A stretch of DNA of 25,861 nucleotides. It comes from a virus. Location: IMG/VR virus record IMGVR_UViG_3300025120_000484, positions 1 to 25,861 of that record. One strand, 5' to 3'. Below the pieces are notes generated by a model, which worked only from the letters and a program-made list of their open reading frames with translations, searched no databases and was not told the origin of the DNA. The stretch's first letter is position 1. Every line of letters starts with the position of its first letter. The translations under genes and the position numbers were made by a program. Of the stretch, positions 1,482 through 21,025 are shown in pieces.

Positions 1482-1898
1482 ATGAGAAAAGAAGTATTTG
1501 AATTATACAAAAAAGATAGTTTAGGAAAATTCTTAGATACGTTAAAGAATGAACCTGAACAAAAGTTTGTGTATGTTTTACAGCATCCACCAACTAATAT
1601 GAATATATTAAGCGCTGGTGATTTCGGTCAACTAGTTATTTGCTTACCTATGTTATCTCAAATAGTTTTTAGTTCCTCACCTTTTATTTTTAAGATGAGA
1701 AAAAACTTAAGAGATTTTAGAAAGCAAGATTATATTCTATGTTTAGGTGACCCGGCAATTATTGGATTATCCACAGCCATAGTCAGCGAAACAACTAACG
1801 GTATGTTTAATTTATTGAAGTGGGATAAAAGAGAATATAAATATTATCCCTTATCAATTGATTTGTATCAGAAAGATGATAACATAGCCATAGACTAA
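1482..1898 (+). CDS. Hypothetical protein, 138 aa
   Basis: Family not recognised. The ATG lies 14-20 bases behind a plausible promoter and follows a purine-rich stretch (AAGAAAGAAAA). The protein has a charged N-terminal part and a more hydrophobic middle (around residues 47-68) that could be a buried strand-helix or a weak membrane segment. It is the first gene of the rightward early-type operon that also holds the genes at 1930 and 2508, so a role in early infection or DNA metabolism is a guess from position only. No catalytic motif is visible. Confidence 0.7.
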   Translation: MRKEVFELYKKDSLGKFLDTLKNEPEQKFVYVLQHPPTNMNILSAGDFGQLVICLPMLSQIVFSSSPFIFKMRKNLRDFRKQDYILCLGDPAIIGLSTAIVSETTNGMFNLLKWDKREYKYYPLSIDLYQKDDNIAID

Positions 1899-1929
1899 TA
1901 ACCTAATAGAAAGAATACAGAGGTACAAA

Positions 1930-2493
1930 ATGAACGACAACAATACAATTAACTTTGAAGAAGACCAACAAGAGATAATTGAAAAAACTGATTTAGATAT
2001 ATTATCTCAACAGTGTTATAAACTTCAATCTTTAGAAAACGAGATTGATAAACAAGAAAAGTTAATTAAGAAATTAAAAGAACAACACGATAATTTAAGT
2101 TCTGAAATAATTCCAGATATACTTGCAGAGCAAGGTATTACATCTATAAAATTATCTGATGGATCAATGATTGAAATCAGAAAAGTATTTAGCTGCACCC
2201 TACCCAAAGACGTAAATAAAAGGGAAGCATGCTATCAATGGCTTCGCCAAAACGATCTAGGTGATATTGTTAAAAACAGTGTTAGTGTAGATTTCGGTAA
2301 AGGTGAGGATAACAGAGCTAAGGATTTCTTTGGCTCTGCAGTGGATCAAGGTTTGGAACCTTCTCAATCTAGTAAGGTTGAGAGTTCTACTTTGAGAGCA
2401 CTATATAGAGAGCGTGTTGAGGCCGGCCTCGACATGCCCTCTGATCTTTTTCATACATATGTTAAAGATCAAACTAAAATCAGTCGGAAATAA
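1930..2493 (+). CDS. Hypothetical phage protein with N-terminal coiled coil, 187 aa
   Basis: A strongly helical, Lys/Glu-rich stretch over about residues 20-62 predicts a coiled coil. It is followed by a compact domain with the pattern SIKLSDGSMIEI and ends with a region containing MPSDLFHTYVKDQ. This arrangement (coiled coil, then a short beta motif, then a C-terminal PxDLF-type tail) is common in phage proteins beside replication genes, but I know no proven function. GAGG at 1919-1922 is a good ribosome binding site. It sits 14 bases before the gene at 2508 and is probably co-transcribed with it. Confidence 0.8.
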   Translation: MNDNNTINFEEDQQEIIEKTDLDILSQQCYKLQSLENEIDKQEKLIKKLKEQHDNLSSEIIPDILAEQGITSIKLSDGSMIEIRKVFSCTLPKDVNKREACYQWLRQNDLGDIVKNSVSVDFGKGEDNRAKDFFGSAVDQGLEPSQSSKVESSTLRALYRERVEAGLDMPSDLFHTYVKDQTKISRK

Positions 2494-2507
2494 TAGGAGA
2501 ACGAAAA

Positions 2508-3296
2508 ATGAATGACGAAACGAAAACAAAGATAGCTGAAAAAAGCAAGACGGAAGTAGTACCTGCTTCTCTTTTCGAAGAGGATGCTAAAGGAGGATTT
2601 GAGAATATGTCATCCGATGACTATGCTCTACCCTTCTTAAGAATATTGGGTCAATTATCACCACAGTGTAATAAACGTGACTCAAAATATGTAGACGGTG
2701 CCGAACCTGGTATGATCTACAACACTGTAACAAGTGAACTCTACGATGGTGAAAAGGGTATTAACTTAATACCTTGTTACTACAAAAGAGAATTTGTTGA
2801 GTGGACCGATAGAGGTGAAGGTACAGCAGCACCTGTAGCAATACATCCTGTTAGTAGTCCGGTTGTAAGTACAGCCAAAAGAGATGCTACTTATAAGGAT
2901 AGATTGCCAAGTGGTAATTACATTGAAAACACTGCGTCATACTTTGTAACTATAGTAAAAGACGATGGTTCAAGTGAAACTGCTTTAATTACCATGAAAT
3001 CTACACAACTAAAAACTAGTAGAACATGGAACTCTATGATGAACACTATAAAGTTAAAAGGTGCTAACGGACATTTTACACCACAACCTTATAGTCATGT
3101 TTACAATCTCAAAACAGTGCCACAATCAAATGACAAGGGAACTTGGTTTGGTTGGAGTATTTCTAAAGTAGGTCCTGTTCAAGATAAAGAACTATATGCT
3201 CAAGCAAAAACTTTTAAAGAAAGTATTGCTAAAGGTGATGTTCAAACAAGTCATGGTGAAGAAGAAGACAAAGCTAAGTCAGCAGCTAACTATTAA
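2508..3296 (+). CDS. Conserved phage protein, possible nucleic-acid-binding role, 262 aa
   Basis: Begins after a clear AGGAG site. The N-terminal 25 residues are polar and probably disordered; residues 40-230 look like a folded alpha/beta domain (DYALPFLRILGQLSP, then KGINLIPCYYKREFVEWTDRG); the C-terminus is acidic and Lys/Glu-rich, a layout also seen in phage single-stranded-DNA-binding proteins with acidic tails. I recognise this type from phage genomes, where it is usually unannotated, so single-stranded DNA binding is only an inference from the acidic tail and the nearby replication genes. It is the last gene before a strong terminator, consistent with a separate, abundantly transcribed unit. 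Confidence 0.8.
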   Translation: MNDETKTKIAEKSKTEVVPASLFEEDAKGGFENMSSDDYALPFLRILGQLSPQCNKRDSKYVDGAEPGMIYNTVTSELYDGEKGINLIPCYYKREFVEWTDRGEGTAAPVAIHPVSSPVVSTAKRDATYKDRLPSGNYIENTASYFVTIVKDDGSSETALITMKSTQLKTSRTWNSMMNTIKLKGANGHFTPQPYSHVYNLKTVPQSNDKGTWFGWSISKVGPVQDKELYAQAKTFKESIAKGDVQTSHGEEEDKAKSAANY

Positions 3297-3547: not shown

Positions 3548-3638
3548 ACTTAGAAAGATTTTTTTTAAATACGAGTTTCAAATTTGGACTGTATGGTTTT
3601 GGGGACCTATACTTTTATTTTTTTGGATAATAGCATGA
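3537..3638 (+). CDS. Small membrane protein, 33 aa
   Basis: A 33-codon frame bridging two genes: its ATG overlaps the end of the upstream gene by 11 bases and its stop forms an ATGA overlap with the primase start at 3635. The first 14 residues are basic (MRNKLRKIFFKYEF) and the rest is a single hydrophobic, Trp-rich segment (WTVWFWGPILLFFWIIA), so it should insert in the inner membrane with the N-terminus inside. The nested coupling on both sides argues for a real gene despite its size. No family recognised. Confidence 0.6.
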   Translation: MRNKLRKIFFKYEFQIWTVWFWGPILLFFWIIA

Positions 3639-5149
3639 GATTTAAAGAAATATTTCAAGGCATGCAAAGTGCCTACGGTCAATATGTTATTGGTGAACAA
3701 GCTACTAACGGTAACAAACAAGACGGTAAAGCTTTTATAAAAAGAAAACAAGTAACAGATGATTTGTGGCAAGATCATTTAGACGGTAAAGATCCTGCGC
3801 TAGGTATTATACCTATTAATGAAGAGAACAAATGTAAATGGGGTTGTATTGATGTAGACAAATACAACCTAGACCATAAAAAAATAATTGAAACTATTAG
3901 AAAGAATAACTTACCTTTAATATTATTTAGATCAAAGTCCGGGGGAGCACATATATTTTTATTTTGTAATACATTTATCTCAGCAGCTCTCATGCAATCT
4001 AAATTAAAACAAATAGCTGAACTACTAGGTTACATGGATTGTGAAATCTTTCCTAAACAAACAGAGGTTCTTGTAGAACGTGGTGATACAGGAAACTTTT
4101 TAAATCTACCTTACCACAATCACATGAAGGGATTAAGATATGCTTTTAACGATAATGGCACCGCTGCTACACTTGAAGAATTTTTTGAGCTCTATGATAT
4201 TTATGTTCAAGAAGAAATTGGTATTGATGAAATCAAAGTTGAAAAACCAAAACAAGAAGAAGTCTTCAAAGACGGACCACCTTGTTTAAATAAATTAGCT
4301 AACGATGGGTTTGGTGAGGGTGGTAGAAACAATGCTTTATTTAACATAGCTATGTTTTACAAACAGGCTGAACCAGATAAGTGGGAAGATTTAGTTGAAG
4401 ACGCTAATATAAATTACATGAGTCCACCTTTAAGATCTAGTGAAGTTCAACAACTTCTTAAATCAATAGGTAAAAAAGGTTATGATAAGTATAGGTGTAA
4501 ACAAGCGCCTATTAATTCTGTTTGTAATTCTGGTTTATGTAGACTTAAAAAATTTGGTGTAGGTTTTGATGAAGAAGAAATGCCACCGTTAAATGATTTA
4601 ACAAAGATTACTTCAGATCCTCCACAATGGTTTTTAAATGTAGAAGGAAAGAGATTAAAATTTACTACAGAACAATTACATAGTGCTCACATGTTTTCTA
4701 TAGCATGTATGTCTCAAGCTAGTTTGATTGTACCTATACCTAAATCAAATGATTGGAGAAGTCTTTTAAAAGAATTAATGAAGTCTATTCAAGAAATAGA
4801 ACCTATGGAATCCTTAAGTGCTGTCAATCAATTAGAAAATTTATTGTATGAGTTTACAGTAAACAGGGCACAAGCAAGAACAAAAGAAGACATACTGAAT
4901 AAAACACCGTGGACCGATGAGGGTTATACTTATTTTAAAATGGATGACTTTTATAATTGGTCAAAGAAAAACAATTGGGAACTTGATAAAACAAAGACAG
5001 GAAATTTAATGATGGAATTATCTTGTTACGAGGGTGAAGTAAGAAGTCTTAGTATCAAAGGTACTAATCCTAGAATAACTAAAATTAAATCTTTAAAAAT
5101 TATTAAACCAAGTGTTAGTGATAGGCCTTACAAAGAAACGAATTACTAA
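3635..5149 (+). CDS. Archaeo-eukaryotic-type (AEP) DNA primase, 504 aa
   Basis: Primes DNA synthesis for the phage replisome. Features seen: a CIDVDKY segment with the metal-binding D-x-D at residues 73 and 75, then the S-x-H motif in SKSGGAH (H106), both diagnostic of AEP primases, close to the TOTE-system type. Residues 228-245 contain GGRNNALFNIAMFYKQ, a helical region typical of primase C-terminal (PriCT-like) domains. Four cysteines at about 217, 288, 297 and 302 form a likely Zn or Fe-S site. The last ~190 residues look like extra helical/winged-helix domains. The ATG at 3635 overlaps the preceding stop (ATGA); an in-frame TTG upstream is inferior. The stop overlaps the helicase start by one base (TAATG). 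Confidence 0.88.
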   Translation: MRFKEIFQGMQSAYGQYVIGEQATNGNKQDGKAFIKRKQVTDDLWQDHLDGKDPALGIIPINEENKCKWGCIDVDKYNLDHKKIIETIRKNNLPLILFRSKSGGAHIFLFCNTFISAALMQSKLKQIAELLGYMDCEIFPKQTEVLVERGDTGNFLNLPYHNHMKGLRYAFNDNGTAATLEEFFELYDIYVQEEIGIDEIKVEKPKQEEVFKDGPPCLNKLANDGFGEGGRNNALFNIAMFYKQAEPDKWEDLVEDANINYMSPPLRSSEVQQLLKSIGKKGYDKYRCKQAPINSVCNSGLCRLKKFGVGFDEEEMPPLNDLTKITSDPPQWFLNVEGKRLKFTTEQLHSAHMFSIACMSQASLIVPIPKSNDWRSLLKELMKSIQEIEPMESLSAVNQLENLLYEFTVNRAQARTKEDILNKTPWTDEGYTYFKMDDFYNWSKKNNWELDKTKTGNLMMELSCYEGEVRSLSIKGTNPRITKIKSLKIIKPSVSDRPYKETNY

Positions 5150-14886: not shown

Positions 14887-15132
14887 TTATTTTTTCAATA
14901 CTTTTTTACGCCTGAACCTTGATGTATAATACTCAGGTCCATGATTGGGTAATAAATCTGGATGTGTTGTGCTTGAGACTTCTTGCTTGTTGCTTGAGAC
15001 TTCTTGCTTGCTGCTTGGGGCTTGTGCCTTATAGGTTATAGATTCAATACTCTCGTTATTTTCAAAAATTTCCAGGGTATACCGGGCCACATTAGCAGCC
15101 CGGAGCTCTTCTATTATTTTTTTATCTATCAT
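14887..15132 (-). CDS. Hypothetical protein with repeat-derived linker, 81 aa
   Basis: A helical N-terminal half (KKIIEELRAANVARYTLEIFE) is joined by a Ser/Lys/Gln/Glu/Val linker (SSKQEVSSNKQEVSS) to a basic tail (YTSRFRRKKVLKK). The linker is encoded by the heptamer repeat at 14971-15033, whose 21-base period gives a 7-residue protein repeat. The gene overlaps the upstream one by 11 bases. No family recognised; the repeat probably expanded inside a tolerant linker. Confidence 0.6.
   Translation of the reverse strand: MIDKKIIEELRAANVARYTLEIFENNESIESITYKAQAPSSKQEVSSNKQEVSSTTHPDLLPNHGPEYYTSRFRRKKVLKK
14971..15033. repeat. Tandem heptamer repeat, consensus GCTTGNN (nine units)
   Basis: Read in 7-base steps: GCTTGAG, ACTTCTT, GCTTGTT, GCTTGAG, ACTTCTT, GCTTGCT, GCTTGGG, GCTTGTG, CCTTATA. 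The same heptamer recurs in noncoding DNA at 16998-17025 and begins the 38-base repeats at 16941 and 19323. This copy is within a coding region. Confidence 0.8.
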
Positions 15133-15463
15133 TGACGCTTTCTAAGTGCTCAACAAAACTTTTGACGCTTGCTATAACTTCTTTTGTGCTTAGTTTATTT
15201 TGTTCTTTGTATACTTCACGCCAATTTAAAGATTTTGAAAAGGCATTTATCATATAGTTTAAATCCATATCTAGGATTGGAATATTAACGCCTTTACTTG
15301 ATGACCACCAATAATTTAAATCATCATCAGTCATATTTGAAGGTATAGCTCGTTTTGTTTTTATTTGCATAACCTCTAATAAATCTCTAACTGTTAATTG
15401 ATCACGCTGTAATATATTGGCAACGTCTAATATATCTTGAATATCTATTTTTTTCTTTTTCAT
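15122..15463 (-). CDS. Hypothetical protein, 113 aa
   Basis: The ATG follows GAGGAA that overlaps the upstream gene's stop, giving good coupling. The N-terminus is basic and helical (MKKKKIDIQDILDVANILQ), the middle contains NYWWSSSKGVNIPILDMDLNYMINAF and the end is helical. It reads as a soluble, mostly helical protein. No family recognised. Confidence 0.65.
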   Translation of the reverse strand: MKKKKIDIQDILDVANILQRDQLTVRDLLEVMQIKTKRAIPSNMTDDDLNYWWSSSKGVNIPILDMDLNYMINAFSKSLNWREVYKEQNKLSTKEVIASVKSFVEHLESVNDR

Positions 15464-16177
15464 TTATTCCTCACTTTCTAAGACAAATCCAGAATAATCC
15501 GTTTTTGCTTTTCCTTTTGCTTTTAATCCGGCAATGATATTATTACCGTCTAAAAATCTTAAATCGCTCTCGTCTGCATTTATAACCTTAAACCCCTTAA
15601 AAGTTTTAGGTAGATTAGATCTAAAAACGGCAGCAATATTGCCACCAAGTTTTAAAACGTTCATAGCTTCGTCTTTATTATCCTCCGTTAGGCTGTAAGT
15701 TAGATGATAATTGGACGGCATTTGGCCATTCACATGTTTTAAAATTCTTTTATAAACCTTGGTATAATCGTAAAATTGTACGCTTGGAAATTCTTCAAAT
15801 ATTCCTGTAGTTTCCCAAAATATATCTGAAGTTCCGTTCAATCTTACGCAAGGGATTAATTTTTTATTCTCAGCTTTAATTAAAAAAGCTTTTATTTCTT
15901 TTCTAAGTTGAATTAAAAAGCTTTCTCTCTCTTGAATATACCACCTGGTTTTGTTTATTCGACCTTGCTGTACGTTATTAAATGCGCCATGCCCTGCACT
16001 ATATAAACAAGATTTTAAGCATCCTGGACTTGCTTGAGAACAGACATTAAATCCAGATTGTGAACCAGACGCACCGTAAAAAATGGCTGTCATATATCCA
16101 AAATTTTGGCCTTTTACAGTCTTAGCATTATTATCAATATTCAAAATTTTCTTTGATTTTTTAAACTCTAAATACAT
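15464..16177 (-). CDS. DUF7227-like conserved phage protein with Cys motif, 237 aa
   Basis: I recognise the sequence type: an N-terminal FGYMTAIFYGA, then NVCSQASPGCLKSCLYSAG (44-62) with Cys at 46, 53 and 57, then RWYIQERESF (78-87), the invariant-looking VRLNGTSDI (111-119), QFYDYTK (134-140), YHLTYSLTEDN and a C-terminal LRFLDG...GLKAKGKAK. Proteins of this family (as I recall, DUF7227) occur in many phages and have no established function. The C-x6-C-x3-C cluster plus C110 suggests metal or Fe-S binding, and the repeated strand-helix segments suggest a barrel. It is coupled to its downstream neighbour. Confidence 0.75.
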   Translation of the reverse strand: MYLEFKKSKKILNIDNNAKTVKGQNFGYMTAIFYGASGSQSGFNVCSQASPGCLKSCLYSAGHGAFNNVQQGRINKTRWYIQERESFLIQLRKEIKAFLIKAENKKLIPCVRLNGTSDIFWETTGIFEEFPSVQFYDYTKVYKRILKHVNGQMPSNYHLTYSLTEDNKDEAMNVLKLGGNIAAVFRSNLPKTFKGFKVINADESDLRFLDGNNIIAGLKAKGKAKTDYSGFVLESEE

Positions 16178-16393
16178 CTAAAACGCCTCAAGTTTAAATT
16201 CGATAGGCTGATAAAAACTCGGTCTATCTTCATATTTATTTTTAATTTTTGCCGTTTGGTTTTCTAAGTCGGCCACCTTTTGCGCTTCTTCAATTGAGCT
16301 ATAGGTTTCACTTTCAAAATAATGGCTCATCCATATATAGTCATTACTTGTTTTTGATTTAGTTGTTTTTACTATTTTATATAATACTTTCAT
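16178..16393 (-). CDS. Hypothetical protein, 71 aa
   Basis: First gene of the leftward operon that runs to the small terminase. GAGAAAG lies just upstream of the ATG and a good promoter lies 25-55 bases before. The N-terminus is basic and beta-like (MKVLYKIVKTTKSKTSNDY), the middle helical (SIEEAQKVADLENQTAKI). Its stop directly precedes the next ATG. No family recognised. Confidence 0.65.
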   Translation of the reverse strand: MKVLYKIVKTTKSKTSNDYIWMSHYFESETYSSIEEAQKVADLENQTAKIKNKYEDRPSFYQPIEFKLEAF

Positions 16394-16411
16394 TTTAACT
16401 TTCTCGCTTTC

Positions 16412-16447
16412 TGTCTATTTTATATCACATAATCCCATAATAGACAA
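16412..16447 (-). promoter_or_regulatory. Leftward promoter overlapped by an inverted-repeat operator
   Basis: On the minus strand TTGTCT (16447-16442), a 17-base spacer and TATAAA (16424-16419) form a promoter for the gene at 16393. TGTCTATT (16412-16419) and AATAGACA (16439-16446) are perfect inverted repeats covering both promoter boxes, and TCCCATAA (16433-16440) lies between them. Confidence 0.65.
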
Positions 16448-16492
16448 ATAAATATTAATAGATTATATATATAATTCTATGGTGAATTTACT

Positions 16493-16852
16493 TTGAAACC
16501 TGAGTCTAAATTATGGCAAGAATTGAAAAGAAAAACGCCTTTAATATCCTGGACTAGGTTAGAAAGTTGGGCTTCTTTGGGTGTTCCTGATCTTCTTGGT
16601 TATACTGACAATAAAGGTTTTTTTACTGTAGAATTAAAAGTAATAGTTAGTAAGAAAATACGCTTTTCACCTCATCAAATATCGTTCCATATTAAACACT
16701 TTAGAAATTCTTACATCATAGCCAAGACCCTCGATCCTTTGAGCTATAAACTTTATCCAGGGTCCTCGGTCCTTGCTCTATCACAAGGTGAACCGGTTCG
16801 GGCACTAGCTGACAATTGGCCAGAAATTCAAGAAAAACTTATCCACAGTTAA
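16493..16852 (+). CDS. VRR-NUC-type nuclease, 119 aa
   Basis: A PD-(D/E)XK nuclease of the VRR-NUC family, which cleaves branched DNA such as Holliday junctions or replication intermediates. SLGVPDLLGYTDN (28-40) carries the D33 ligand, FTVELKV (44-50) gives E47-x-K49, and KIRFSPHQISFH (55-66) carries Q62. The length matches phage VRR-NUC proteins. The start is TTG, preceded by GGTGA at 16481-16485 and a TATAAT box at 16470-16475; no in-frame ATG precedes it. It is the only plus-strand gene inside the leftward block. Confidence 0.8.
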   Translation: MKPESKLWQELKRKTPLISWTRLESWASLGVPDLLGYTDNKGFFTVELKVIVSKKIRFSPHQISFHIKHFRNSYIIAKTLDPLSYKLYPGSSVLALSQGEPVRALADNWPEIQEKLIHS

Positions 16853-16875
16853 TATTATATTATCCCATTTTATAC

Positions 16876-16903
16876 TTTACTTTCCCATAATAAATGTTAT
16901 AAT
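16876..16903 (+). promoter_or_regulatory. Extended -10 promoter in front of a noncoding segment
   Basis: TGTTATAAT (16895-16903) is a perfect extended -10 box; TTTACT (16876-16881) lies 16 bases upstream as a partial -35. The spacer holds TCCCATAATA, and another TATCCCAT lies at 16861. No gene follows on this strand for over 2.6 kb, so the promoter appears to drive a noncoding transcript. Confidence 0.65.
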
Positions 16904-16940
16904 AGTAAGGGTTGGGAGGGAGGGCTAAAAGATTCCCGGT

Positions 16941-16978
16941 GCTTGCGCCTTCTGGGCCCACCCGCCCCCACCACCCCC
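16941..16978. repeat. 38-base GC-rich repeat, copy 1
   Basis: Matches 19323-19360 at 33 of 38 positions without gaps, in the same orientation. Core: TCTGGGCCCACCC followed by CCCCCACCACC. Both copies are noncoding islands of high GC in AT-rich DNA and start with the GCTTGNG heptamer. The minus strand reads as a G-quadruplex motif. Confidence 0.85.
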
Positions 16979-16997
16979 GGTTCCCCTGGTTCGTGCA

Positions 16998-17025
16998 GCT
17001 TGCTGCTTGTGGCTTGTGGATTGTT
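16998..17025. repeat. Heptamer repeat, noncoding copy (four units)
   Basis: GCTTGCT, GCTTGTG, GCTTGTG and GATTGTT in tandem, the same family as the nine-unit array at 14971-15033. Confidence 0.75.
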
Positions 17026-17078
17026 TTTTATTTTTTTTTCAGCCTTGAGCTCTGATAGCTCGTGGCCTATGTCTTAGC

Positions 17079-17113
17079 AATAAATTCACGGACCGGAATT
17101 TATTATTTTTTTT
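17079..17113 (+). terminator. Hairpin with T-run, possible terminator
   Basis: AATAAATTC (17079-17087) and GAATTTATT (17096-17104) form a perfect 9-bp stem; one A then eight T residues (17106-17113) follow. The stem is AT-rich, so efficiency may be moderate. Confidence 0.5.
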
Positions 17114-17151
17114 AACCCAGGTTTGGGCTTGTTGATCTGAAATCCAGAATG

Positions 17152-17182
17152 AAGCAAGCGCCCTAACGGGCGCTTGCTTTTT
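17152..17182 (+). terminator. Strong intrinsic terminator between the noncoding segment and the leftward operon
   Basis: AAGCAAGCGCCC (17152-17163) pairs perfectly with GGGCGCTTGCTT (17168-17179) around a TAAC loop; T residues run to 17182. In the minus direction the same stem lies just after the stop of the gene at 17187 and may also end that transcript, although its T-run is poorer there. Confidence 0.85.
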
Positions 17183-17186
17183 ATTC

Positions 17187-17591
17187 TTATTCAATCTCCG
17201 TGATCCTGTATGCGTTTTCTTTGGGGTCCTCATCCTTATAAGATACCCTCTCGACCCACCTTGTGGCTTCTTCCATGCTTTCAAATTCCATAATCTGAGT
17301 AACAAAGGAAGGTTTTGTTTTATAAGTAATTTGAAATTTCTTAGGTTTATCTTTTATGTAAAGCACAAAAGAGTCCACCTTGTCTTTATCAGCATTGTGA
17401 TAGTAAGAACCGTTTGACCTCCCATATTTTACAGTCTTATACAGTTTTCTATTAAGATACTTTCTCGCTAACTTAATAAATAAATTACCCTCTTCATCGT
17501 TTGGAATACCATAGAATTGATATTCCCCTCCACCGTTAGGATTTTTCATAATCCTCTCTTGGAATTCATTAACCAATTTTAGTTCAGTCAT
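17187..17591 (-). CDS. Hypothetical protein, 134 aa
   Basis: Last gene of the methyltransferase cassette; its ATG overlaps the methyltransferase stop by 8 bases. The protein has a helical N-terminus, a central alpha/beta region (FIKLARKYLNRKLYKTVKYG) and a C-terminal segment (SFVTQIMEFESMEEATRWVERV) that looks like a small alpha/beta domain. No family recognised. Linkage to the methyltransferase hints at an accessory role, without direct evidence. Confidence 0.65.
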   Translation of the reverse strand: MTELKLVNEFQERIMKNPNGGGEYQFYGIPNDEEGNLFIKLARKYLNRKLYKTVKYGRSNGSYYHNADKDKVDSFVLYIKDKPKKFQITYKTKPSFVTQIMEFESMEEATRWVERVSYKDEDPKENAYRITEIE

Positions 17592-18615
17592 TTGCTTTCT
17601 CTCTTTCTATATAAGCGTTATATAATTTAGGATTATTCTTTTTAATACTTGATACGGTAGCATAATCCTTTTCTTTTAGTCCGTTGAAGATGTGGGCAAT
17701 CACATCTATCGTCCAACCATCTCCAAGAATACAAGCAACTTGATTATTCGTTAATCCTTTGGTGTACCCTCTTGGAACTGTTTGACAATCTTCTCTTTCT
17801 TGTGGTGTCAGATATCTAACACCTTCATAAATAGATAAATCGATATTACTATTTTTAATATGTTTATTTATTTGTTCAGCGTTCATGTGTTTAAAATTTT
17901 CAGTATAATGATTAGCACAATCTAAATAATGCTTTTCACTTTTAAAAATTAAAGTCGTAAATCCTGTTGTAAAATATCTATGAAACATTTTAACGGGTGT
18001 GGATAATGGACGACTATCACTCTCAAGCAAACATCTTGCTTTATCCTTTTCAGCTTTACCTTTTTCTTTTCTTTTATATTTATCATTCCACCAACCATAT
18101 TCTAAAATATTATTTAAAGTTTTAGGTTTTGGTTTAACATAATAAAGAGGAATATTAGTCCAATATAATCTATTTCTGTTTTGAGGTGAAAAATAACTTG
18201 AATTAATTTTAATAGGTTCACAACCTAATTCTTTAGAAATAATATCTTGATGATCTTTTTTCATTACTACATTTTCTAATAAGAAATATTTTGGTTTCAC
18301 TTCATTCTTTAATCTTAACCACTCATAAAATAATCTACTCTTGGAACCTTCAACACCTAATCTATTTTTATTAGCACCTGAAAAATCTTGGCAAGGTGAA
18401 CCACCTATAAACAAATCTATCGTAGGGAGATCACTACCTTTAATGGTAGTGATATCACCTAATCTATTTTTTTGATCTTGAGGATAATTATTATTTGCGA
18501 CCTTGATTGCATAATCTTTGATCTCGGAACTAAAATAATTATCCACGGTCAGCCCTACCTTATCTAATGCAATACGACCACAAGACATTCCGTCAAATGC
18601 TGAAAATACATTCAT
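17584..18615 (-). CDS. DNA cytosine-5 methyltransferase, 343 aa
   Basis: Transfers a methyl group from S-adenosylmethionine to cytosine C5, probably to shield phage DNA from restriction. Motif I is FSAFDGMSCGRIAL (4-17), motif IV GGSPCQDFS (71-79) with catalytic C75, motif VI FLLENV (111-116), motif VIII SPQNRNRLYW (143-152), and motifs IX/X lie near LTPQEREDCQ and the C-terminal NNQVACILGDGW. It is complete for a phage enzyme. The ATG at 18615 follows a GGAGGT site with ideal spacing; an earlier in-frame TTG lies inside that site and is rejected. No restriction endonuclease is evident beside it. Confidence 0.95.
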   Translation of the reverse strand: MNVFSAFDGMSCGRIALDKVGLTVDNYFSSEIKDYAIKVANNNYPQDQKNRLGDITTIKGSDLPTIDLFIGGSPCQDFSGANKNRLGVEGSKSRLFYEWLRLKNEVKPKYFLLENVVMKKDHQDIISKELGCEPIKINSSYFSPQNRNRLYWTNIPLYYVKPKPKTLNNILEYGWWNDKYKRKEKGKAEKDKARCLLESDSRPLSTPVKMFHRYFTTGFTTLIFKSEKHYLDCANHYTENFKHMNAEQINKHIKNSNIDLSIYEGVRYLTPQEREDCQTVPRGYTKGLTNNQVACILGDGWTIDVIAHIFNGLKEKDYATVSSIKKNNPKLYNAYIEREKAND

Positions 18616-18616
18616 G

Positions 18617-18712
18617 TTATTTACCTCCAAAAAGTTCGTTGATAATAGTACAAACGAAAAGCAATGCGACCACCGAAGTGATCACAATGCAAATTGTGTT
18701 TAAGTCTTCCAT
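18617..18712 (-). CDS. Single-span membrane protein, 31 aa
   Basis: A tiny frame between the metallopeptidase and methyltransferase genes: its ATG overlaps the upstream stop (TAATG) and its TAA is one base before the methyltransferase ATG, whose ribosome site it contains. The protein, MEDLNTICIVITSVVALLFV onward, is one hydrophobic segment (about residues 7-24) with a short polar end. It may be a membrane anchor or partner of a neighbour; function unknown. Confidence 0.6.
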   Translation of the reverse strand: MEDLNTICIVITSVVALLFVCTIINELFGGK

Positions 18713-19098
18713 TATTTTTCTCTCTTTCTATAATAGTCACCGAATGTTTTTAAACATTCGTTTTTGCTTATTACTTCTTTTAATGTACTACACATTAAAG
18801 GACATTTCTCATCATGATCTATTCCATAAATTGCATGAAGGATCTCATGATAAACAACATTTCTTAAATAATCATCATTCTTATAGGATTGATCATCTAT
18901 CCAAATAATATTGTCATTAAGTCTAGCAACACCCAAAACACCACAAGTTTTAGATTTACCTATTCTAACATCTATTCTAGGAATATCAGAATATACATTT
19001 TTGATTTCATAAATCATGTCAATGACTTGTCTTCTTAATTTGTAGACATCATCATTCATTTTATGGTTTATAAAATCTTTTGTTGTTTTCTTTCTCAT
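18712..19098 (-). CDS. HExxH zinc metallopeptidase-like protein, 128 aa
   Basis: Contains VVYHEILHAIYGIDHDE: H84, E85 and H88 form the HExxH zinc site, and H95 after GID is a likely third ligand, giving HExxH-x3-G-x2-H, one residue longer than the metzincin spacing. A beta-rich part precedes it (RIDVRIGKSKTCGVLGVARL, then NIIWIDD), as in minimal single-domain metallopeptidases. Three Cys follow in the C-terminal part (CPLMC and C115). The ATG at 19098 is preferred; an in-frame start at 19137 lies in the promoter region. No signal peptide, so it likely acts in the cytoplasm. First gene of the leftward cassette; substrate unknown. Confidence 0.75.
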   Translation of the reverse strand: MRKKTTKDFINHKMNDDVYKLRRQVIDMIYEIKNVYSDIPRIDVRIGKSKTCGVLGVARLNDNIIWIDDQSYKNDDYLRNVVYHEILHAIYGIDHDEKCPLMCSTLKEVISKNECLKTFGDYYRKREK

Positions 19099-19137
19099 GA
19101 CTAAAAATATACCACAATTTATGGGATAAATAATCAA

Positions 19138-19558
19138 AAAAGATGCATTATTTTAGTTTAGCAATCTATCACGCTTCATGCTCCGTGGTATCTGTATGGG
19201 CTTTATAATGGGTTTTTATGGGATAATATATTATAGATACCATTTCTGGATTTCCAGGCATACTGCATCTTGTACCTACTGCATCTTGTGTTGCATTTTT
19301 GCAACACCTACTAGATATAGTGGCTTGAGACCTCTGGGCCCACCCACCCCCACCACCGCCTTCTGCTTCTCGCCCCGCTGGGGCGAGATCGGATAGAGGT
19401 ACCAAACCATGTTTCAAACTACATTTGTTTATTGGCACCCCTACCCCCCTTTTTGTATATGTAGGGATCCTAATGTACTTGTATATAGTCGGATTTGAAG
19501 ATAACATCACCTGAAATACTTATTGAAAAAATTTTTATAAAATTTTTTTCGTTTTTAA
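19138..19558. other. Noncoding region upstream of the large terminase, rich in repeats and hairpins
   Basis: No supported gene in 421 bases. It holds an inverted repeat GGTATCT/AGATACC (19187-19193 with 19235-19241) enclosing three ATGGG motifs spaced 12 and 10 bases; a 13-base direct repeat, TACTGCATCTTGT, at 19261-19273 and 19277-19289; a perfect 8-bp hairpin GTGTTGCA/TGCAACAC (19288-19307); the second copy of the 38-base repeat; a 9-bp GC hairpin TCTCGCCCC/GGGGCGAGA (19368-19388); and CCCTAC/GTAGGG flanking a C/T-rich run (19439-19466). Candidate packaging site, origin or control region. Confidence 0.6.
19323..19360. repeat. 38-base GC-rich repeat, copy 2
   Basis: Direct repeat of 16941-16978 (33/38 identical). 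Together the copies bracket the leftward cassette that carries the methyltransferase and metallopeptidase genes. Confidence 0.85.
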
Positions 19559-21025
19559 ATGTTAAAAGATATAGATCTAAGAAAGCTACCTATTGATGCC
19601 AAGAAAGACTTCATGAAGTATGCAATAAGATTGGAAGAGAAGAAAAAAGAAAAAGCTGTCTCTACTGATTTTATGTCTTTCGTAAAATATGTTTGGCCTG
19701 ATTTCATAGAGGGGTCCCACCACAAAATCATGGCTGATAAGTTTAATCAAGTGGCCGCGGGCAAGATAAAAAGATTGATTATCAATATGGCACCTCGACA
19801 TACAAAATCAGAATTTGCATCGTTCCTGCTCCCCGCTTGGATGATCGGTAGAAACCCTAAGTTAAAAATAATCCAAGCAACTTTTAATTCAGAGCTCGCT
19901 GTTCGCTTTGGTCGTAAAGCAAAACATTTAATTGATACAGACGAGTATAGAAAAATTTTTCCCACAAAATTACAAGAAGATTCTAAAGCTGCAGGTCGTT
20001 GGGAAACGAATCAAGGGGGTGAATATTTTGCGACAGGTGTGGGTGGTGCTGTGACAGGTCGTGGTGCGGATCTATTTATTATTGATGACCCTCACTCGGA
20101 GCAAGATGCGATGAACATGAATTCCTTTGAGAGAACTTGGGAATGGTATACCTCTGGTCCTCGTCAGCGTTTACAACCGGGTGGTAGAATTATTTTGGTG
20201 ATGACGAGATGGAACACAAAAGATTTAACAGGAATGCTGCTCAAAGCTCAAAGTGATCCTAAAGCAGATCAATGGGAGATTATAGAATTTCCAGCAATCC
20301 TACCAAGCAATAAACCTGTATGGCCAGAGTATTGGAAGTTGGATGAATTACAAACGGTCAAAGCTTCGCTGTCCGTGAGCAAATGGAATGCTCAGTATCA
20401 ACAAAATCCCACGGCAGAAGAGGGGTCTATCATTAAACGAGAATGGTGGAGGGTCTATGAAGGAGAAGAACTTCCTGCTCTACATCATGTGATACAAAGT
20501 TATGATACAGCTTTTATGAAGAAACAAACAGCAGACTATTCAGCTATTACAACGTGGGGAGTCTTTTATCCGACCGAGGACAGCGGACCAAACTTGATTT
20601 TGTTAGATTGTGTGAAAGATAGATTTGAGTTCCCGGAACTCAGAAGAGTGGCTAAAGATCAATATGATTATTGGAAACCTGAAACGGTGATCGTGGAAGC
20701 TAAGGCATCAGGACTGCCTTTGACATATGAATTACGAAAAATGGGAATACCGGTTTTAAACTTTACACCTAGTAAAGGAAATGATAAACATACAAGGGTG
20801 AATTCTGTAGCTCCTATCTTTGAAGCAGGACAAGTGTGGGCACCAGATAAAAAATTTGCAGATGAAGTTATAGAGGAATGTGCTTCGTTTCCTTATGGCG
20901 ACCATGACGATTTAGTAGACAGCACAACTCAAGCTGTCATGAGATTTAGACAGGGAGGATTTATTGAACACCCAGACGACCAAGAAGATGAACCCTTACC
21001 TCACCAACAAAGGACGTATTACTAA
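19559..21025 (+). CDS. terL: Terminase large subunit, 488 aa
   Basis: The motor and nuclease that packages DNA into the prohead. The ATPase domain has a Walker A-like APRHTKSE (78-85) and Walker B with acidic pair in FIIDDPHSE (173-181), then a coupling motif region around LVMTRWN (213-219). The C-terminal RNase H-like nuclease shows D316 in QSYDTAF, E380 in VIVEAKASG and the acidic cluster GDHDDLVD (447-454). Length is normal for the Terminase_6 type. The ATG has no clear ribosome site, following an A/T-rich stretch. It is coupled to the portal gene by TAATG. The small subunit gene is elsewhere on the opposite strand. Confidence 0.95.
   Translation: MLKDIDLRKLPIDAKKDFMKYAIRLEEKKKEKAVSTDFMSFVKYVWPDFIEGSHHKIMADKFNQVAAGKIKRLIINMAPRHTKSEFASFLLPAWMIGRNPKLKIIQATFNSELAVRFGRKAKHLIDTDEYRKIFPTKLQEDSKAAGRWETNQGGEYFATGVGGAVTGRGADLFIIDDPHSEQDAMNMNSFERTWEWYTSGPRQRLQPGGRIILVMTRWNTKDLTGMLLKAQSDPKADQWEIIEFPAILPSNKPVWPEYWKLDELQTVKASLSVSKWNAQYQQNPTAEEGSIIKREWWRVYEGEELPALHHVIQSYDTAFMKKQTADYSAITTWGVFYPTEDSGPNLILLDCVKDRFEFPELRRVAKDQYDYWKPETVIVEAKASGLPLTYELRKMGIPVLNFTPSKGNDKHTRVNSVAPIFEAGQVWAPDKKFADEVIEECASFPYGDHDDLVDSTTQAVMRFRQGGFIEHPDDQEDEPLPHQQRTYY

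Follow-up and report, generated by a model that had tools for sequence, protein, structure and literature searches.

Results and Discussion

An intergenic segment of a marine phage genome (positions 16876–17182 of the window, that is, the whole 25,861-base IMG/VR virus record that was analyzed) carries a 27-bp core motif that recurs in one orientation within an island of variable genes lying just before the gene encoding the large terminase subunit (TerL). Insertions that distinguish related islands are found in excess beside this core. We propose, with moderate confidence, that the segment is a cassette-junction element at which genes are exchanged by homologous recombination at a polar direct repeat, and a junction marking gene gain and loss is more likely than a regulatory RNA gene.

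Structure and Conservation of the Intergenic Segment

The segment sits between a plus-strand gene (16493–16852) and a convergent minus-strand gene (17591–17187). The original prediction had described a gene-free stretch with an extended −10 promoter, GGGTTGGGAGGGAGGG at the predicted start, a C-tract, hairpins, and a strong terminator. All of these elements were located (Table 1), and the only plus-strand ORFs within the segment were of 44–47 codons in low-complexity sequence, leading us to reject a coding role. The −35 element TTTACT (16876–16881) is separated by a 16-nt spacer from the −10 element TATAAT (16898–16903; TGTTATAAT, with TG before the −10), from which initiation is predicted near the first G of the G-run, at 16909. 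The layout of this promoter matches that of other island promoters (CTTGACAnnnTCCCATAAnATGCTATAAA). The C-tract is part of the repeat described below, and a role as an accessory-gene junction lay outside the original interpretation.

Table 1. Features of the segment and of the surrounding island in the window.
Feature	Positions	Strand	Remarks
Left border gene, which we take to be VRR-NUC-like	16493..16852	+	Without Pfam match; PHROG 2165 (annotated DNA helicase)
DnaA box, perfect, TTATCCACA	16839..16847	+	End of upstream VRR-NUC-like gene
Predicted sigma70-type promoter TTTACT-16-TATAAT, extended −10	16876..16903	+	TCCCATAA in spacer
G-quadruplex motif GGGTTGGGAGGGAGGG	16909..16924	+	At predicted transcription start
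Junction core, copy 1: GCTTGCGCCTTCTGGGCCCACCCGCCC	16941..16967	+	
C-tract extending core	16957..16986	−	Minus-strand quadruplex motif, group-specific
GCTTGnn heptamer tract adjoining core	16998..17018	+	Insertions break here in relatives
Serial hairpins with T-runs	17043..17127	+	17043–17062; 17079–17104 then T8; 17116–17127
Strong intrinsic terminator	17151..17180	+	Stem kept, one compensatory change
Accessory genes between two cores	17187..19137	−	134 aa unknown; C5-cytosine methyltransferase, 348 aa; metalloprotease-like, 141 aa
Junction core, copy 2: GCTTGAGACCTCTGGGCCCACCCACCC	19323..19349	+	About 210 bp before TerL
Right border gene, terminase large subunit TerL	19559..21025	+	

Only two quadruplex motifs were found in the window and both are in the segment, one at 16909 on the plus strand and one at 16986–16957 on the minus strand. 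When the whole window was dinucleotide-shuffled 200 times, no quadruplex motif with loops of 1–2 nt arose; shuffling the local kilobase 1000 times produced one in a single case.

Close relatives were 81–95% identical over the segment, mostly 91–95%. The unit formed by the promoter and the G-run is confined to about 10 of them and is missing from most phages with the island across the wider family; an exact search for the G-run among viral contigs retrieved the known relatives, further sequence of one of them, and L351 and L352, two contigs unrelated to these. Every relative with the unit had an identical G-run except L104, in which it reads GGGTGGAGGGCGGG, duplicated and weaker, and in which about 100 bp spanning the DnaA box, promoter, and G-run are repeated in tandem (4188–4400). 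CTCGC/C-rich repeats were also seen at the terminus of the L104 contig. A short predicted transcript running from this promoter to any of the serial terminators is plausible on sequence grounds and conserved in close relatives, but its two ends are not equally well kept: the terminator stem is retained, with one compensatory pair change, whereas the −10 box drifts among TATAAT, TAAAAT, TATGAT, or TATACT. In an alignment of six close sequences, four helices showed pairing in 99.4% of cells, but covariation over six such close sequences is too thin as proof of a structured RNA.

These data bear on the possibility that the segment encodes a small regulatory or antisense RNA, running from 16909 to 17180, which we consider very unlikely. 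The promoter and the terminator are suitably placed for such an RNA, and both the retained terminator stem and the high identity among close relatives are consistent with it. However, the full transcript folded only modestly better than shuffled sequences (z = −2.05), no family was matched at the gathering threshold in an Rfam search of the segment, and the sub-threshold matches were all at the terminator end. In addition, the −10 box is not kept, the wider family is devoid of the promoter–G-run unit, and most of the transcribed half consists of a DNA repeat occurring in all gene-orientation contexts and even in frame in a gene. No tRNA or tmRNA identity was found for the segment.

A 27-bp Core Motif Repeated in a Family of Phages

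The sequence 16941–16978 recurs at 19323–19360 in the same orientation with 87% identity. The consensus of 300 distinct copies, GCTTGnnnCYTnTGGGCCCACCCnCCC, has sharp edges and unconserved flanks. This apparent conservation is inflated, being partly imposed by the search pattern and drawn from contigs that were partly fetched by the motif; positions 22 and 24–26 lay outside the collection scan, although positions 22, 24, and 25 were part of the looser re-scan used for orientation counts. A strict pattern was found in 12 stretches of viral contigs and a relaxed pattern, GCTTGNNNCNNNTGGGCCCACC, in at least 120. Across 257 Gb of bacterial and archaeal genome sequence, the same relaxed pattern gave 61 hits scattered over unrelated organisms. 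As about this many are expected by chance from 16 fixed bases, a host origin of the motif was rejected. Literature searches returned nothing on the motif: no phage paper in the literature searched contained the string TGGGCCCACCC, all of whose occurrences were outside phage papers.

A set of 120 non-redundant loci contained 328 core copies, from one to nine per locus, with two to nine copies in 80 of them. Mixed orientations were looked for in the 80 multi-copy contigs and no case was found. A general quadruplex function of the core was rejected, since a canonical quadruplex was formed by only 55 of 300 copies.

In 22 contigs the core also occurs in frame toward the 3′ end of the VRR-NUC-like gene, where third codon positions were 0.86 alike within the core versus 0.68 in neighbouring codons, a difference biased by the motif-based fetching of the contigs. 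This observation, with the same bias, argues against a neutral or selfish repeat, in which a heptamer/core tract would spread by slippage and tandem duplication, keeping one polarity and having no role. Drifting heptamer tracts are indeed present in many relatives, and at the variable positions of the core the copies of one contig are slightly more alike than those of different contigs (0.60 versus 0.51), as such spreading would produce, but a sharp-edged 27-bp core with unconserved flanks is maintained across wide TerL divergence. A repeat devoid of any role thus appears doubtful to us.

Sequences Surrounding the Core

The core is bordered on either side by a strong excess of GCTTGnn heptamers. 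On its left, TTGACA on the minus strand and CCCATA on either strand show about 10-fold enrichment; TGTCAA, the minus-strand form of TTGACA, was found within 50 bp to the left of 89 of the 328 copies versus about 7 expected, and most copies are without it. Many of these TTGACA and CCCATA instances are parts of leftward-reading promoters of the CTTGACAnnnTCCCATAAnATGCTATAAA type, the strict form of which was found beside the core in 19 distinct instances.

Several other elements were noted. TCCCATAA is present in the window at 19120 and 19217 on the minus strand and at 16434 and 16884 on the plus strand, at intergenic sites and in promoter spacers of this phage group, and it may be a candidate site for a phage or host regulator. 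Between the second core and TerL, AGAGGTACCA and AGGGATCCTA are located at 19395–19404 and 19463–19472, and counterparts (AGGGGTCCCA and AGGGATCCTA) occupy the same place in many relatives, core-less ones included. GCTTGnn heptamers were also found in a coding region at 14957–15039, in the small minus-strand gene beside TerS, where they specify SSKQEVSSNKQEVSS-like repeats. In L079, L083, and other relatives with 62–66% TerL identity, other 7-base tandem tracts lie about 450 bp before TerL, with for example CCCGGCA or CCCAAGG units replacing GCTTGnn, and these relatives also have conserved GGGTCCC/TATCGGGTCA and CAAGGGCCATGTTT blocks. Finally, the ends of the assemblies L099, L104, L221, and L006 coincide with a core or its C-rich tract or are no more than about 100 bp away, a pattern anticipated for multi-copy or population-variable sequence.

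Perfect DnaA boxes were also close to the core: of the 52 found in motif-bearing contigs, 36 were no more than 200 bp from a core, nearly always to its left. This strong co-location, together with the duplication of DnaA box, promoter, and G-run as one block in L104, would fit a replication origin at which the G-cluster transcript forms an R-loop and primes synthesis with the aid of DnaA bound at 16839. The original prediction had likewise raised a replication primer, an idea to which the box at 16839–16847 and the G-cluster at the predicted start lend some weight. However, DnaA boxes adjoin only a minority of cores, several motif sites are present per genome, and the complete genome of the relative 023Pt contains no TTATCCACA, while its cumulative GC skew tracks gene direction and singles out no origin. 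An origin at this site is accordingly highly improbable in our estimation.

Location and Polarity of the Core in an Accessory-Gene Island

The only named relative retrieved by megablast was the seawater phage 023Pt_psg01, with 71.9% identity over the terminase gene. The phages are of a type with an SU10-type portal and Pam3-like early genes, and the named relative has a DNA polymerase A. In the window, three early proteins (1482–3296) matched Pfam families of cyanophage Pam3 (gp32, gp33, and gp34), and an AEP-type primase match was found at 3584–5149.

The flanks of the array are constant: TerS on the minus strand and the VRR-NUC-like gene on the plus strand are followed by cores and variable genes, then by TerL on the plus strand. 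The layout VRR> (core) genes (core) TerL> is repeated across contigs with differing gene content. In long records, all copies fall within one island of 3–4 kb extending from the VRR-NUC-like gene to TerL. The complete 023Pt genome has five GGGCCCACC sites, all on the plus strand, at 15431–17839, just before TerL; a 55.5-kb record has seven copies within 27.8–31.3 kb, and a 55.9-kb record has two copies 2.8 kb apart. Of the proteins scanned, the methyltransferase was the sole PADLOC match, and for most others the libraries used gave nothing; a defence or counter-defence load was therefore rejected for the scanned proteins.

Core polarity was the same as TerL polarity in 65 of 68 contigs, and two of the three exceptions involved distant terminases. 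The genes flanking a core were on the strands +− in 64 cases, −− in 57, −+ in 53, and ++ in 40. Because all four gene-orientation contexts occur, we rejected the idea that the core acts as promoter or terminator for a particular gene. Moreover, gene families such as 1, 2, 5, and 11 are found on both strands while core polarity is constant; the core is thus not a fixed gene end that travels with its gene, and its polarity is possibly tied to another function.

Polarity that tracks the genome and not the genes is the strongest open point for the junction reading. It is the main argument for regarding the core as a polar, protein-read DNA site placed on the genome axis for recombination, replication, or packaging in the manner of Chi, KOPS, or a pac site, with the junctions merely tolerating its presence. 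The alignment with TerL (65 to 3) and not with the genes, the presence of a copy usually 113–300 bp before TerL, and core position 23, where C is found in only 4 of 300 copies, would all agree with such a site. On the other hand, the copy number varies from one to nine, and direct duplication would give polarity too. Several TerL relatives at 74–78% identity are without a core in the 450-bp stretch preceding TerL, and a universal packaging (pac/cos) site was rejected for this reason; the sequence of this stretch is also varied in these core-less lineages, which weakens the junction reading. We consider a polar protein-read site unlikely.

Proposed Gene Exchange at the Junctions

Insertion junctions within islands provide the evidence for gene gain and loss at the core. 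Thirty of 63 such junctions, taken from compared pairs that are not independent, fell between −40 and +110 of a core versus 13.7 expected by length, and about half were away from the core. In L012, a single gene missing from its relatives lies between direct repeats of about 100 bp that start at the core. In the pairs L195/L223, L204/L189, and L237/L280, the insertion breakpoints are located in the heptamers or close to a core, and the insertions add another core.

These results suggest that many accessory-gene junctions share a short direct repeat made up of the core and its GCTTGnn heptamers, and that modules may enter or leave by homologous or microhomology recombination between the repeats. 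The uniform polarity of the core would be accounted for, since recombination of this type acts between direct repeats. The phage's own RecE/Cas4-like exonuclease, in combination with strand annealing, is the probable machinery: the exonuclease family phrog_298 (RecE/Cas4-like) was matched in all seven records searched, and the exonuclease of the window gave weaker matches to RecE-like and CRISPR-associated exonuclease families. In contrast to this family, the enzymes of the integron, serine recombinase, and Y1 transposase mechanisms were absent from the seven records, and these mechanisms were rejected. Tyrosine recombinase (PF00589) was matched in none of the seven, some of which are fragments, with a positive control of 14 out of 14 genomes; likewise, no match to serine recombinase/resolvase (PF00239) or Y1 HUH transposase (PF01797) was found in them.

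In the group to which the window belongs, the promoter ahead of the first junction may add a further step. A transcript running from the G-run to the serial terminators could open the DNA through a quadruplex or an R-loop and thereby favour recombination, and the terminators would shield the convergent genes.

A bolder proposal is that the core is the dedicated polar cis-acting site of an undescribed integrase-free gene-capture system, read one-way by a phage or host protein that drives recombination there, and with its first site boosted by a transcribed G-quadruplex in one group. We regard this as improbable; if true, such a system would build accessory-gene arrays without a classical integrase.

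Comparison with Known Systems

Integrons are cassette arrays that rely on the tyrosine recombinase IntI, carry a GTTRRRY box in attC, and have ORF orientation tied to attC. The island resembles them in its small, mostly unknown genes, its repeats all the same way round, and its one fixed border. It differs in that the seven records contain no tyrosine recombinase, the consensus of 300 core copies is without the attC GTTRRRY box, and gene orientation is independent of the repeat. REP/RAYT or IS200/IS605-like elements differ from the present one by their Y1 HUH transposase, which the seven records do not have. The boundary or linker sequences of lambdoid phages are short, conserved, located at module borders, and permit exchange, and usually differ between borders; the core is similarly a short conserved border sequence that may permit exchange, but it is the same at many borders within a single island.

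The nearest described kind appears to be the PeSLs of T4-type phages, repeated promoter/stem-loop junctions for which module shuffling was proposed (Arbiol 2010; Comeau 2014, cited in PMC4503421); our comparison draws on that citation. As far as PeSLs are described there, both are repeated noncoding junctions between accessory genes associated with module gain or loss, observed here as the excess of insertion junctions near the core (30 of 63 versus 13.7) and in L012. The element reported here differs in its conserved part, polarity, and lineage. Its conserved part is a 27-bp core without an evident promoter or terminator role; a composite of early promoter and terminator was not found at each junction, a promoter being beside some copies only; the core is fixed to the genome axis; and the phage lineage is not T4-type.

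A further resemblance is with the G4-associated sRNA of Neisseria gonorrhoeae pilE, for which a promoter drives a transcript starting in a G-quadruplex beside a recombination site (PMC3547852). For the segment, too, the promoter is predicted to initiate within a quadruplex sequence, next to a site of probable recombination. However, the unit is present here in about 10 relatives, and the exchanged units are accessory genes, not silent gene copies. We take this resemblance as a lead and make no claim of membership.

The loading and swapping of accessory genes are poorly understood in phages other than T4-like and lambdoid ones. One recognisable junction sequence in a widespread group of uncultured marine phages offers a handle with which their accessory genes can be listed, and it also allows exchange to be tracked in populations and the cause of the repeat polarity to be tested.
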